In this document: in pieces, positions 1 through 34,589 of the stretch
Layout of the letters: every line of letters starts with the position of its first letter
Numbering within the stretch: the stretch's first letter is position 1
NCBI GenBank assembly: GCA_026417755.1
Contig: JAOACQ010000069.1
Coordinates: 1-34,589, forward strand
Source: Brevinematales bacterium
Lineage (GTDB): Bacteria; Spirochaetota; Brevinematia; Brevinematales; JAOACQ01
Reading direction: 5' to 3'
Length of the DNA: 34,589 nt
Made by a program: the position numbers and the translations under genes
Notes under the pieces: model-generated
Seen by the model: the letters and a program-made list of their open reading frames with translations, nothing else
Database searches by the model: none
Told to the model about the DNA's origin: nothing

Positions 1-3000
1 GAAATGGCACTTGAGTTGTTCAAACCTTTTGTTATGAGAGGACTTGTTGAACAGGGTTATGCACATAATATTAAAGCAGCCAAGAGAATGATTGAAAGTG
101 AACATGAACTTGTGTGGGGTATACTTGAAAATGTTGTAAAAAAACATCCTGTTTTACTTAACAGAGCTCCTACTCTCCATAGACTTGGTATTCAGGCTTT
201 TGAGCCAGTTCTTACAGAAGACAAAGCTATACAGCTTCATCCACTTGTCTGTCATGCTTACAATGCCGACTTTGATGGAGACCAGATGGCTGTCCATGTT
301 CCATTGACTCCAGAAGCTCAAATTGAAGCATGGATGTTGATGTTATCTTCAAGGAACCTTTTAAATCCGGCGAATGGTAAACCTATAGTTTATCCAACCC
401 AGGATATGGTACTAGGAATATATTGTTTAACTAAACCATATAGTGAAAAGCCGGAGAAGTTTAAGTTTTTTGATAGTATTGAAGAAGTTTTGATGGTTGT
501 TGATTCAAAGAGGCTAACTTATAATGATTGGATAAAGTATAAATTTAATGGTAATTTTATTGAGACTACAATAGGAAGAGTTATATTTAATGAAATTGTT
601 CCTGATGAGCTTAAATTTGTTAATGATACTCTTACAGGTAAAAAGATTGAAGCCTTAATATCTTCATGTTATCAGAAGTTTGGTATAAAGGAAACGGCTA
701 AACTTCTTGATAATCTTAAGGCTATTGGATTTAAGTATTCTACGTTATTTGGGGTTACAATTTCTCTTTCTGATCTTGTTATTCCAGAAGAAAAGAATAA
801 AATAGTTGAAAAAACAGAAAAAGATGTTGAAAAGGCCGAAGAAAACTCAAGAAATGGACTTATTACACATGATGAAAAGTATAACCAGGTTATTGACTAC
901 TGGACAAGTGCTAATGAAAAAATAAAGAAACTTGTTGAAAATAGACTTAAAGATGATCAGAAAGGATTTAATTCACTTTATATTATGATGGATTCTGGAG
1001 CGAGAGGTTCAAGAGAACAGATAAGACAGCTTGTTGGTATGAGAGGTCTTATGGCGAAACCATCAGGAGATATTATTGAACTTGCTATTAAATCAAACTT
1101 TAAAGAAGGGCTTTCGGTGATAGAGTACTTTATTTCAAGCCATGGAGCAAGAAAAGGTCTTGCTGACACTGCTTTGAAAACAGCAGATGCCGGGTATTTA
1201 ACAAGAAAACTTGTAGATATTGCACAGGATGTTGTTGTTACTATGGATGATTGTGGGACTGTTCGTGGTATTAATATGAGTGCTATAAAGGAAGGAGATG
1301 AGGTTGTTAAACCTTTGGCAGATCTCATTGTTGGTAAAGTTCCAGTATCAAATGTATATGACCCAAGAAATGGAGAGCTACTTGCTAAGGCCAATGAAAT
1401 AATAAATGAAAATATTGCTAGAAAAATAGAAGATTCCGGTATAGAATCGGTACTTATAAGAAGTGTTATAACTTGTGAGGCACATTTTGGTGTCTGCGCT
1501 AAGTGTTATGGATGGGATCTATCTTCAAGAAGTCTTGTTAATATTGGTGAGGCTGTTGGTATTATTGCGGCAGAATCTATTGGGCAACCTGGTACCCAGC
1601 TTACCATGAGAACCTTCCATATTGGTGGAACTGCGGCCACACAACTAGAAGAGAGTGAACTAAAGTTAAATTATGATTCATACATTGTTTCTGTTCCGGA
1701 CAATTTGATTGTGAGAAGTAAGACCGATGCTAAAGAAATCGTTGTACCTAGAAAGTCTTATGTAAGGGTAAGAAAAGTTTTACAGGTTTTTGAAAAGGAA
1801 AATATAAAGGATAATATTGAGCTAAAGCAAATTGATGGAAAAGAATTTTTAAGTGAAAAGGTTCTTTTTATGCTCAAGGATGGTACAGAAGTTAAATTTG
1901 GTAGAAAAGTTGTTGTTTGTGTAAAGGGCAAGTCTATACTCGTTATGGAAAGTAACCTATATGAGTATTCTTTGAAGATTGGAAGTATCCTTTTTGTTAA
2001 AAATGGGGATTTTGTAAAGAGAGGAGAGAAAATTGCTGAGTTTGACCCATACAATGAAATCCTTGTGAGTGAATATACGGGTATTTTAGGTTTTGCTGTT
2101 GAAAAAGTAGATGGTATTGAAGAGAAGAACAAGAATATACTTGTAATTTATTCAGAAGATGGCAAAGAATTAGATAGATTTGTTCTTGTCCCTGGAACTA
2201 CTTTGTTATTTGAAGAGGGATCAAAAGTTAGCCCGGGGGATATAATAGCCAGAAGACCAATTGCAAAGAGAAGGACAAAAGATATTATTGGTGGTTTGCC
2301 AAGAGTTACAGAACTTTTTGAATCAAGAAAGCCTAAGAATATTGCTGTTATTGCTAAGGTTAATGGTGTTGTTGAAAGTATAGAACAGAAAAAAGGAAAA
2401 TATGTAATAAATATTAAAGCAAAAAATGGGGTATCTTTCTCACATGTTGTTCCAACCGGTAAGAATATTTATGTTAGAATTGGTGATAGGGTTCAGGCTG
2501 GAGAGCCTTTGTGTGAAGGAGTTGTAAGTTCTCATGATATATTAAGAGTTATGGGTTATACAAAGGTTAATGAATTTTTGTTATCAGAGATTCAGGCAGT
2601 TTACCGCTTACAGGGTGTGGATATTAACGAAAAGCATATCAGTGTAATTATAAGACAAATGCTTAAAAAGGTTGAAGTTGTAGATCCCGGTGATACGGAG
2701 TTTATACTTGGCCAGAATGTTGACAAGGTAGTGTTTTATAGAGAAAATGAAAGGATAAAAAAAGAAGGTGGGCAGCCAGCTAAGTCAAGACCAATACTTA
2801 TGGGACTTACTAAAGCCTCTCTATTTACTGAGAGTTTCCTCTCAGCTGCTTCGTTCCAGGAAACTCCAAGAGTATTGTCTTCTGCTGCATTGAGAGGGGC
2901 AAAAGATAAGCTGGAAGGTTTAAAAGAAAATCTTGTTATTGGGCAACTTATACCGGCCGGGACAGGGATTAAACATTATCAGAACATAAAAGTTTCGATG

Positions 3001-3018
3001 TTCGGTGCAGAGAATTAA
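1..3018 (+). CDS. rpoC: DNA-directed RNA polymerase subunit beta' (C-terminal part, 5' end outside window)
   Basis: Catalytic beta' subunit of RNA polymerase; the frame is open from base 1, so this is the last 1005 residues of a protein that begins upstream. The catalytic loop NADFDGDQM places the Mg-binding aspartates at fragment residues 90, 92 and 94. The bridge-helix region ([17 protein letters not shown]) begins near residue 331. The second zinc site is C418, C492, C499 and C502, with the same spacing as E. coli C814/C888/C895/C898. The trigger loop ([21 protein letters not shown]) is followed by about 210 extra residues (544-760) before [14 protein letters not shown], which is an SI3-type insertion. 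The next gene starts 130 bases downstream behind its own promoter. Identification is certain; only the N-terminus is missing. Confidence 0.98.
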
Positions 3019-34073: not shown

Positions 34074-34112
34074 AATCTCTCTTTTGGGATTGAATGGAAA
34101 GAGGAAGGATCC

Positions 34113-34137
34113 CCACACCCCACTATGTGGGGTGTGG
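34113..34137. repeat. GC-rich hairpin, 11-bp stem and TAT loop
   Basis: CCACACCCCAC (34113-34123), loop TAT, GTGGGGTGTGG (34127-34137) is a perfect stem, unusually GC-rich for this genome. It stands at one edge of the structured region. It could stop transcription, but neither strand has a proper T run after it (CTTTCT on +; GGATCCTTCC on -). Confidence 0.7.
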
Positions 34138-34147
34138 CTTTCTACCG

Positions 34148-34463
34148 CCAGCCGTCTCTGCTGGATAAGCAAATGAATTTTTCCGCTTTAGCCACCTGTA
34201 GCAAGAATCGACAGCAACTCGACATCCTGTCTTCGGATGTTTATTCAAAAACTTTGCGAAACTTTTAGAAAGCTACCTCTTTCTGTTAACTAATCTAATT
34301 AGACCTTTAGTTAGCCACTTTCAAAAGCCCTCAACCACTCGCAAAGTTTTTTCATTAGTAGAGTCAACATATCTGTCTTAACGGAAGCCTCCTTGCTGCC
34401 TTAGTATAGCATTCGGTGTCTAAAGCGGAAAAATTCATACCCAAGAAGTAAACCAGCAGAGAC
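34148..34463. other. Large structured element with nested inverted repeats (possible non-coding RNA or mobile-element end)
   Basis: Three long arms pair in nested order. GTCTCTGCTGG (34154-34164) pairs with CCAGCAGAGAC (34453-34463). ATGAATTTTTCCGCTTTAG (34173-34191) pairs with 34420-34438 over 19 bp, extended by one mismatch and CACC/GGTG (34193-34196 with 34415-34418). AAAAACTTTGCGA (34247-34259) pairs with TCGCAAAGTTTTT (34339-34351). Inside are a hairpin ACATCC/GGATGT (34222-34240) and TAACTAA/TTAGTTA (34287-34313) around the palindrome TCTAATTAGA. No coding frame is convincing. I did not recognise tmRNA, RNase P RNA, 6S RNA, SRP RNA or a group I/II intron. The strand of any transcript is unknown. 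Confidence 0.55.
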
Positions 34464-34481
34464 TTATAACAACAACAAAAT

Positions 34482-34589
34482 TTAAAAAACAAACAACATT
34501 TGCCCTTCATCGGCAATCATCCTGATTGCCTCAGCTAAGCCATCGCCCATCAAAGAGAGCTTCAGGGCTACAATGGAGAAGACAGGCAG
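34482..34589 (-). CDS. Possible C-terminal fragment of an unrecognised protein (5' end outside window)
   Basis: On the minus strand the frame is open from the window edge (34589) for 35 codons to TAA at 34482-34484, ending MGDGLAEAIRMIADEGQMLF plus two residues. Composition looks protein-like and its GC content is higher than in neighbouring genes. The opposite strand is also open here, and 35 codons can be open by chance, so support is modest. I do not recognise the family. If real, the structured element lies about 20 bases past its stop, an arrangement seen when a transposon gene is followed by its non-coding end. Confidence 0.4.
   Translation of the reverse strand: MPVFSIVALKLSLMGDGLAEAIRMIADEGQMLFVF

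Follow-up and report, generated by a model that had tools for sequence, protein, structure and literature searches.

A 316-base region near the end of the window (the whole stretch of DNA analysed here, 34,589 nucleotides from a Brevinematales bacterium) belongs to a repeat that occurs at 16 or more intergenic loci of the 1.87-Mb draft genome, almost always at the end of a contig. The repeat has no reading frame and comes in three subtypes, which have their loops in common and differ by two-sided changes in their helices. It is probably a genome-restricted family of dispersed, non-coding, non-autonomous repeats, the functional form of which is the folded minus strand of approximately 310–390 nt. 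This strand would form a rod of nested helices (P1, P2, P2b and P3) with conserved internal loops, which carry two small AGGA-loop hairpins (H1 and H2), followed by a GC-rich hairpin. We infer that copies move in a transposition-like manner and land in intergenic DNA, and that the minus strand is made single-stranded, most likely as RNA read from the tail side, and then folds. A trans-acting protein would recognise the conserved loops, and the helices would be scaffolding only, free to change.

Copies, subtypes and extent of the unit

The copy list was built from sequence searches of the genome contigs, and its count is a lower bound. Sixteen heads have their own unique left flank (C27, which is the window, C7, C77, C42, C59, C17, C16, C91, C103, C32, C52, C56, C44, C34, C43 and C13, the last being a head only), while C62 and C95 carry additional right ends. 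A search within the genome, called for by the original prediction, gave many matching places, i.e. the element is multicopy. All copies lie between genes, and the neighbouring genes are found on either strand. The window ends just past the element because the assembly stopped in the repeat, and most contigs end inside it. The draft assembly from which the copies were taken is broken at these sites, and only two complete single copies have both flanks.

Subtype A is found in the window and at least eight other places (copies approximately 92–96% alike), subtype B is complete in C32 and subtype C is complete in C44. The three align by their loops and ends; the arm sequences of P2 and P3 are unrelated.

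The full unit spans approximately positions 34110–34490, beyond the originally predicted 34148–34463 on both sides, and consists of the GC-rich hairpin, the nested helices and an A-rich tail (Table 1). On the plus strand, copies begin with the left hairpin CCCCACACCCC..GGGGTGTGG, continue with GGCTCGCTACCGCYA.GCC and the nested fold, and end with the tail TTATAnCAACAAnAAAATTTAAAA. The GC-rich hairpin is kept at the same place in most copies and is truncated or absent in C59, C91 and C103.

Several other features were seen around the copies. In C91 (L029:1–170) and C103 (L031:1546–1687), subtype A is interrupted in the right loop and gives way to another sequence, which the two contigs share and in which both end. 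This sequence contains a 14-bp hairpin, CACCTTTTCTTTTG..CAAAAGAAAAGGTG, as well as a second hairpin, GACAGGATGTC, and is possibly a further repeat or subtype. In several copies, a degenerate TGTCATTGCGAGGAGCAAAGCGACGAA motif, which resembles a dispersed repeat found in other bacteria, immediately precedes the hairpin (L022:1440–1520; also near the head in L033, L036, L037 and L032), so that the unit may begin further to the left. In C13 (L044:150–230), the head hairpin and linker (..GGCTCGCTACCGCTATGCC) stand without the rest of the element, directly after a terminator-like hairpin. Elsewhere in the window, an RpoC ORF (4–3018) lies in a run with EF-G and contains a weak biotin/lipoyl-like and RPOC hybrid domain match (Pfam).

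Table 1. Parts of the repeat unit in the window and the half copy joined to it, in order of plus-strand position.
Feature	Position	Strand	Description
GC-rich hairpin	34110–34137	minus	CCACACCCCAC/GTGGGGTGTGG; arms 34113–34123 and 34127–34137, 11 bp; forms the left end of the unit and, on the minus strand, its 3′ end
Conserved linker	34138–34153	minus	Plus-strand consensus GGCTCGCTACCGCYA.GCC, from alignment of heads and pattern matches
Helix P1	34154–34164 / 34453–34463	minus	11 bp; 5′ arm 34453–34463, 3′ arm 34154–34164
Helix P2	34173–34196 / 34415–34438	minus	24 nt with one mismatch, 19 + 4 bp; 5′ arm 34415–34438, 3′ arm 34173–34196
Helix P2b	34210–34214 / 34373–34377	minus	Short, covarying; 5′ arm 34373–34377, 3′ arm 34210–34214
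Hairpin H2	34221–34231	minus	GAC-AGGAU-GUC; AGC-AGGAG-GCU in subtype B
Tandem G.A/G.A step plus 2 bp, beside P3	34243–34246 / 34352–34355	minus	3′ side 34243–34246, 5′ side 34352–34355
Helix P3	34247–34259 / 34339–34351	minus	13 bp; 5′ arm 34339–34351, 3′ arm 34247–34259
Apex inside P3	34260–34338	minus	Sequence and length vary between subtypes
Hairpin H1	34383–34400	minus	GGCAGC-AAGGAG-GCUUCC; GGCAAC-AAGGAU-GUUGCC in other A copies
A-rich tail	34464–34490	unassigned	TTATAACAACAACAAAATTTAAAAAAC; common to copies
Half copy of subtype C	34494–34589	minus	Joined to the tail; runs past the window end

The fold, its covariation and the likely functional strand

The three nested perfect helices of the original prediction (11, 19 + 4 and 13 bp) are present where it placed them. 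The MFE of the 316-base region is −95.6 kcal/mol, compared to −59.7 ± 4.4 in dinucleotide shuffles (z = −8.15). Within a span of 340 nt, no perfect inverted repeat anywhere in the window is longer than the 19-bp pair; shuffles of the window never exceed 15 and contain on average 0.6 inverted-repeat pairs of at least 13. Two further statements of that prediction also hold: the GC content of the element (43%) differs from that of the upstream gene (31%) and of the intergenic stretch preceding it (24%), and a coding frame is lacking, with stops breaking the frames of the copies.

The subtypes were compared in a structural alignment made by hand. Between them, 39 of the 49 helix columns are changed on both sides, and 170 of the 174 helix cells (98%) are paired across A, B and C. 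The P2–P3 part is hand-anchored and rests on three independent subtypes, copies within a subtype being close. Each subtype is nearly perfectly paired by itself, and when arms of different subtypes are crossed, pairing falls to 53% in P2, 50% in P2b and 37% in P3. P2b, for example, is GACAG/CTGTC in the window, GGTG/CACC in subtype B and GGGC/GCCC in subtype C. Two-sided change is also found within subtype A (CACC/GGTG vs CAAC/GTTG in P2). The P1 arm GCAGAGAC is near invariant among copies. H1, with the general form GGCANC-AAGGAN-GNUGCC on the minus strand, was counted independently on a MAFFT alignment and has seven cells changed on both sides; its covariation score is 0.352 compared to 0.176 ± 0.043 for shuffled alignments, none of 500 shuffles reaches it, and it drops when the pairing is slid by one to three columns. 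Thus, the check for compensatory changes, made between the subtypes of one genome, finds covariation in P2, P2b, P3 and H1. As almost wholly different paired sequences give the same fold in three subtypes, it seems to be the folded shape as such that is preserved. Judging from these alignments, the fold is under selection or is maintained by a copying process.

Three properties suggest that the element is to be read from the minus strand. First, in all three subtypes, a GA stands opposite a GA immediately outside P3 on this strand, the plus-strand equivalent being TC opposite TC; the 2-bp step that follows covaries between subtypes (AT/AT, GT/AC and AC/GT). Tandem GA/GA steps are typical of RNA. 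Second, the sole wobble pair of the long helices, in P2 of subtype B, is G.T on the minus strand. Third, the minus strand folds better than the plus strand in every copy folded. The first two make sense only on the minus strand, on which the GGA-loop hairpins are meaningful as well. Read in this direction, the order is tail, P1, P2, left loop with H1, P3 with its variable apex, right loop with H2, P2′, P1′, linker and GC-rich hairpin. What is kept appears from these sequences to be the folded minus strand, as RNA or, less likely, as single-stranded DNA.

It is unlikely, though less so than the other alternatives, that the fold matters as DNA only, either as MITE- or attC-like folded single-stranded DNA for a recombinase or transposase, or as a large palindrome with arms that hairpin-templated repair keeps alike. 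The near-perfect long arms (13–24 bp with a single wobble) and their wholesale replacement between subtypes fit arm-to-arm copying, and the element is multicopy and intergenic. However, the small hairpins H1 and H2 and helix P2b covary too, the GA/GA steps speak for RNA, and a Y1 transposase was not found in the 87%-complete genome. The fold of an integron attC has R′/R″ core sites GTTRRRY at its ends; these core sequences are absent from the fold ends here, where the outer helix is GTCTCTGC/GCAGAGAC.

The AGGA-loop hairpins and CsrA

The two AGGA-loop hairpins raise a more specific question, namely whether CsrA binds the folded minus strand as RNA, with H1 and H2 as its sites and dispersed copies that jointly titrate CsrA or put nearby genes under its control. 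We regard this as doubtful. FliW is a protein antagonist of CsrA, and the genome encodes CsrA (81 bits) adjoining fliW, with the CsrA residues L4 and R44 present. Both sequence features of a CsrA sponge are at hand, i.e. GGA in hairpin loops and CsrA in the genome. The positions of H1 and H2 agree between all subtypes and their stems covary; H2 reads CAGGAUG. In subtype A (C7 and C77), H1 reads ACAAGGAUGU, which is the core of the CsrA SELEX consensus RUACARGGAUGU; most of the selected RNAs have the GGA in a hairpin loop (PMC7652899). Against this, H1 in C62 and C56 reads CACGA and has lost the GGA, AGGA-loop hairpins are common in the window (with stems of at least 3, 64 on one strand and 33 on the other), and two sites per copy are few beside CsrB. 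Furthermore, sRNA sponges are not known in FliW organisms, and whether FliW and RNA antagonists of CsrA co-occur is an open question (PMC7652899). That a mobile repeat family has seeded the genome of a FliW-bearing bacterium with a structured RNA carrying paired GGA hairpins, as a dispersed CsrA sponge, would be a long shot.

The locus L087:47–2346 contains a flagellar hook-associated-like ORF, a fliW-like ORF, csrA and a bactofilin-like ORF; all names except CsrA were assigned by eye.

Mobility, range and relation to known repeats

Left-truncated copies (C59, C91 and C103) and half copies chained to tails are expected of mobile repeats, and the preferred reading of a dispersed, non-autonomous repeat accommodates both. 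The number and scatter of the copies and the head-only copy in C13 likewise speak for movement. Half copies of subtypes C and B are chained behind tails: the window carries A and then half of C, and contig C62 carries A, half of C and half of B. The A–tail–C junction is the same at these two loci, the sequences of which differ by approximately 5%, so the composite itself was probably copied as a unit. The original prediction offered two readings, a folded RNA and the folded terminus of a mobile element. It finds support as to the fold, which covaries between subtypes, and as to dispersal, with at least 16 copies, but the unit seems to be a complete small dispersed element rather than the end of a larger one. 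It was further proposed that several identical copies bounded by target-site duplications would mark an insertion element. There are indeed many copies, but no clear target duplication. In the comparison of the two complete copies, the flank and tail of C44 have a 9-base word in common, as is the case in 17 of 1000 shuffles, and those of C32 have none. No promoter-like site at the tail scored above shuffles against the sigma-70 consensus, and terminator-like matches, sought as an intrinsic terminator of the element, were inconsistent between copies.

The A-rich tail, the left-truncated copies and the half copies joined behind tails could also suggest a retroposed SINE-like element copied via an RNA of the plus strand, the 3′ tail of which is A-rich. 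This is very improbable, given that no reverse transcriptase was found in the 87%-complete genome, that C13 is truncated on the right and that the A–C composite was probably copied as a unit. Equally improbable is a decayed protein-coding repeat with loops as ORF remnants: the three right loops do align in one frame (YYYRKQEAEFSPILTT / FYYRRQDVKFCPIITP / INIRRQDVELLSILTT), but we rejected this reading since most copies have stops in all frames and paired columns change together, and third codon positions, compared by eye, are not favoured by changes.

Among the genomes compared, the repeat is, as far as these searches reach, found only in this bacterium. The original prediction recognised no structured RNA here, and Rfam likewise gave no match at gathering score in the window and nothing credible at relaxed thresholds in the loci holding subtypes A, B and C. 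Searches with the three subtypes by blastn against 393 genomes of the phylum, including only one other genome of the bacterium's own taxonomic family, returned only chance matches of 23–33 bases. In the same 393 genomes, a covariance model of the left loop found the bacterium's own genome only; two marginal covariance-model matches (G057 and G202) were discarded, being without nested helices and resembling coding DNA. No relative was found by blastn among plasmids and phages, and the loop patterns matched none of the viral contigs. The strict loop pattern had one match in 84,980 species, a set in which this bacterium's genome or very close ones may not be visible; it lies in GC-rich Acidobacteria DNA and was dismissed as a chance match.

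The family is best classed as new and restricted to this genome; its members are large, structured dispersed repeats of a bcr-like kind that have no entry in Rfam. The bcr1 repeat is structured, and we know of no sequence relation between bcr repeats and the present family. Like the present repeats, bcr1–bcr18 of Bacillus cereus are non-coding dispersed repeats of 100–400 bp with tens of copies in one bacterial group and features of mobile DNA (PMC6542083), but their TTTAT target motif was not seen here, and the three subtypes that coexist in this genome share loops, not helices. Stem-loop repeat families of bacterial genomes are also intergenic with conserved predicted secondary structure; they were found by short stem-loops (PMC2267715), whereas the present family is a long rod of nested helices and internal loops. 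Palindromic elements mobilised by IS200/IS605 and REPINs are likewise non-coding, multicopy and hairpin-bearing, but have a pair of subterminal hairpins in place of the rod, and no Y1 transposase was found in the 87%-complete genome. HEARO (omega RNA), group II introns and other large Rfam RNAs are similar as large structured RNAs associated with mobile DNA; unlike them, this family has no credible Rfam match and no reverse transcriptase was found. CsrB/RsmY-type RNAs share the GGA motifs in small hairpin loops, but here there are two sites per copy in the internal loops of a long rod, a dispersed repeat instead of one gene, and no Rfam match.

Most dispersed repeats of bacteria are short palindromes, compared to the 310–390-nt unit described here. 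That the loops are conserved between coexisting subtypes whose long helices have been rewritten is strong evidence, at the level of sequence, for a role of the folded strand, be it for the element or for the host. Were CsrA to bind this strand as RNA, the family would speak directly to the question of whether CsrA antagonists of both kinds, FliW and RNA, coexist (PMC7652899).
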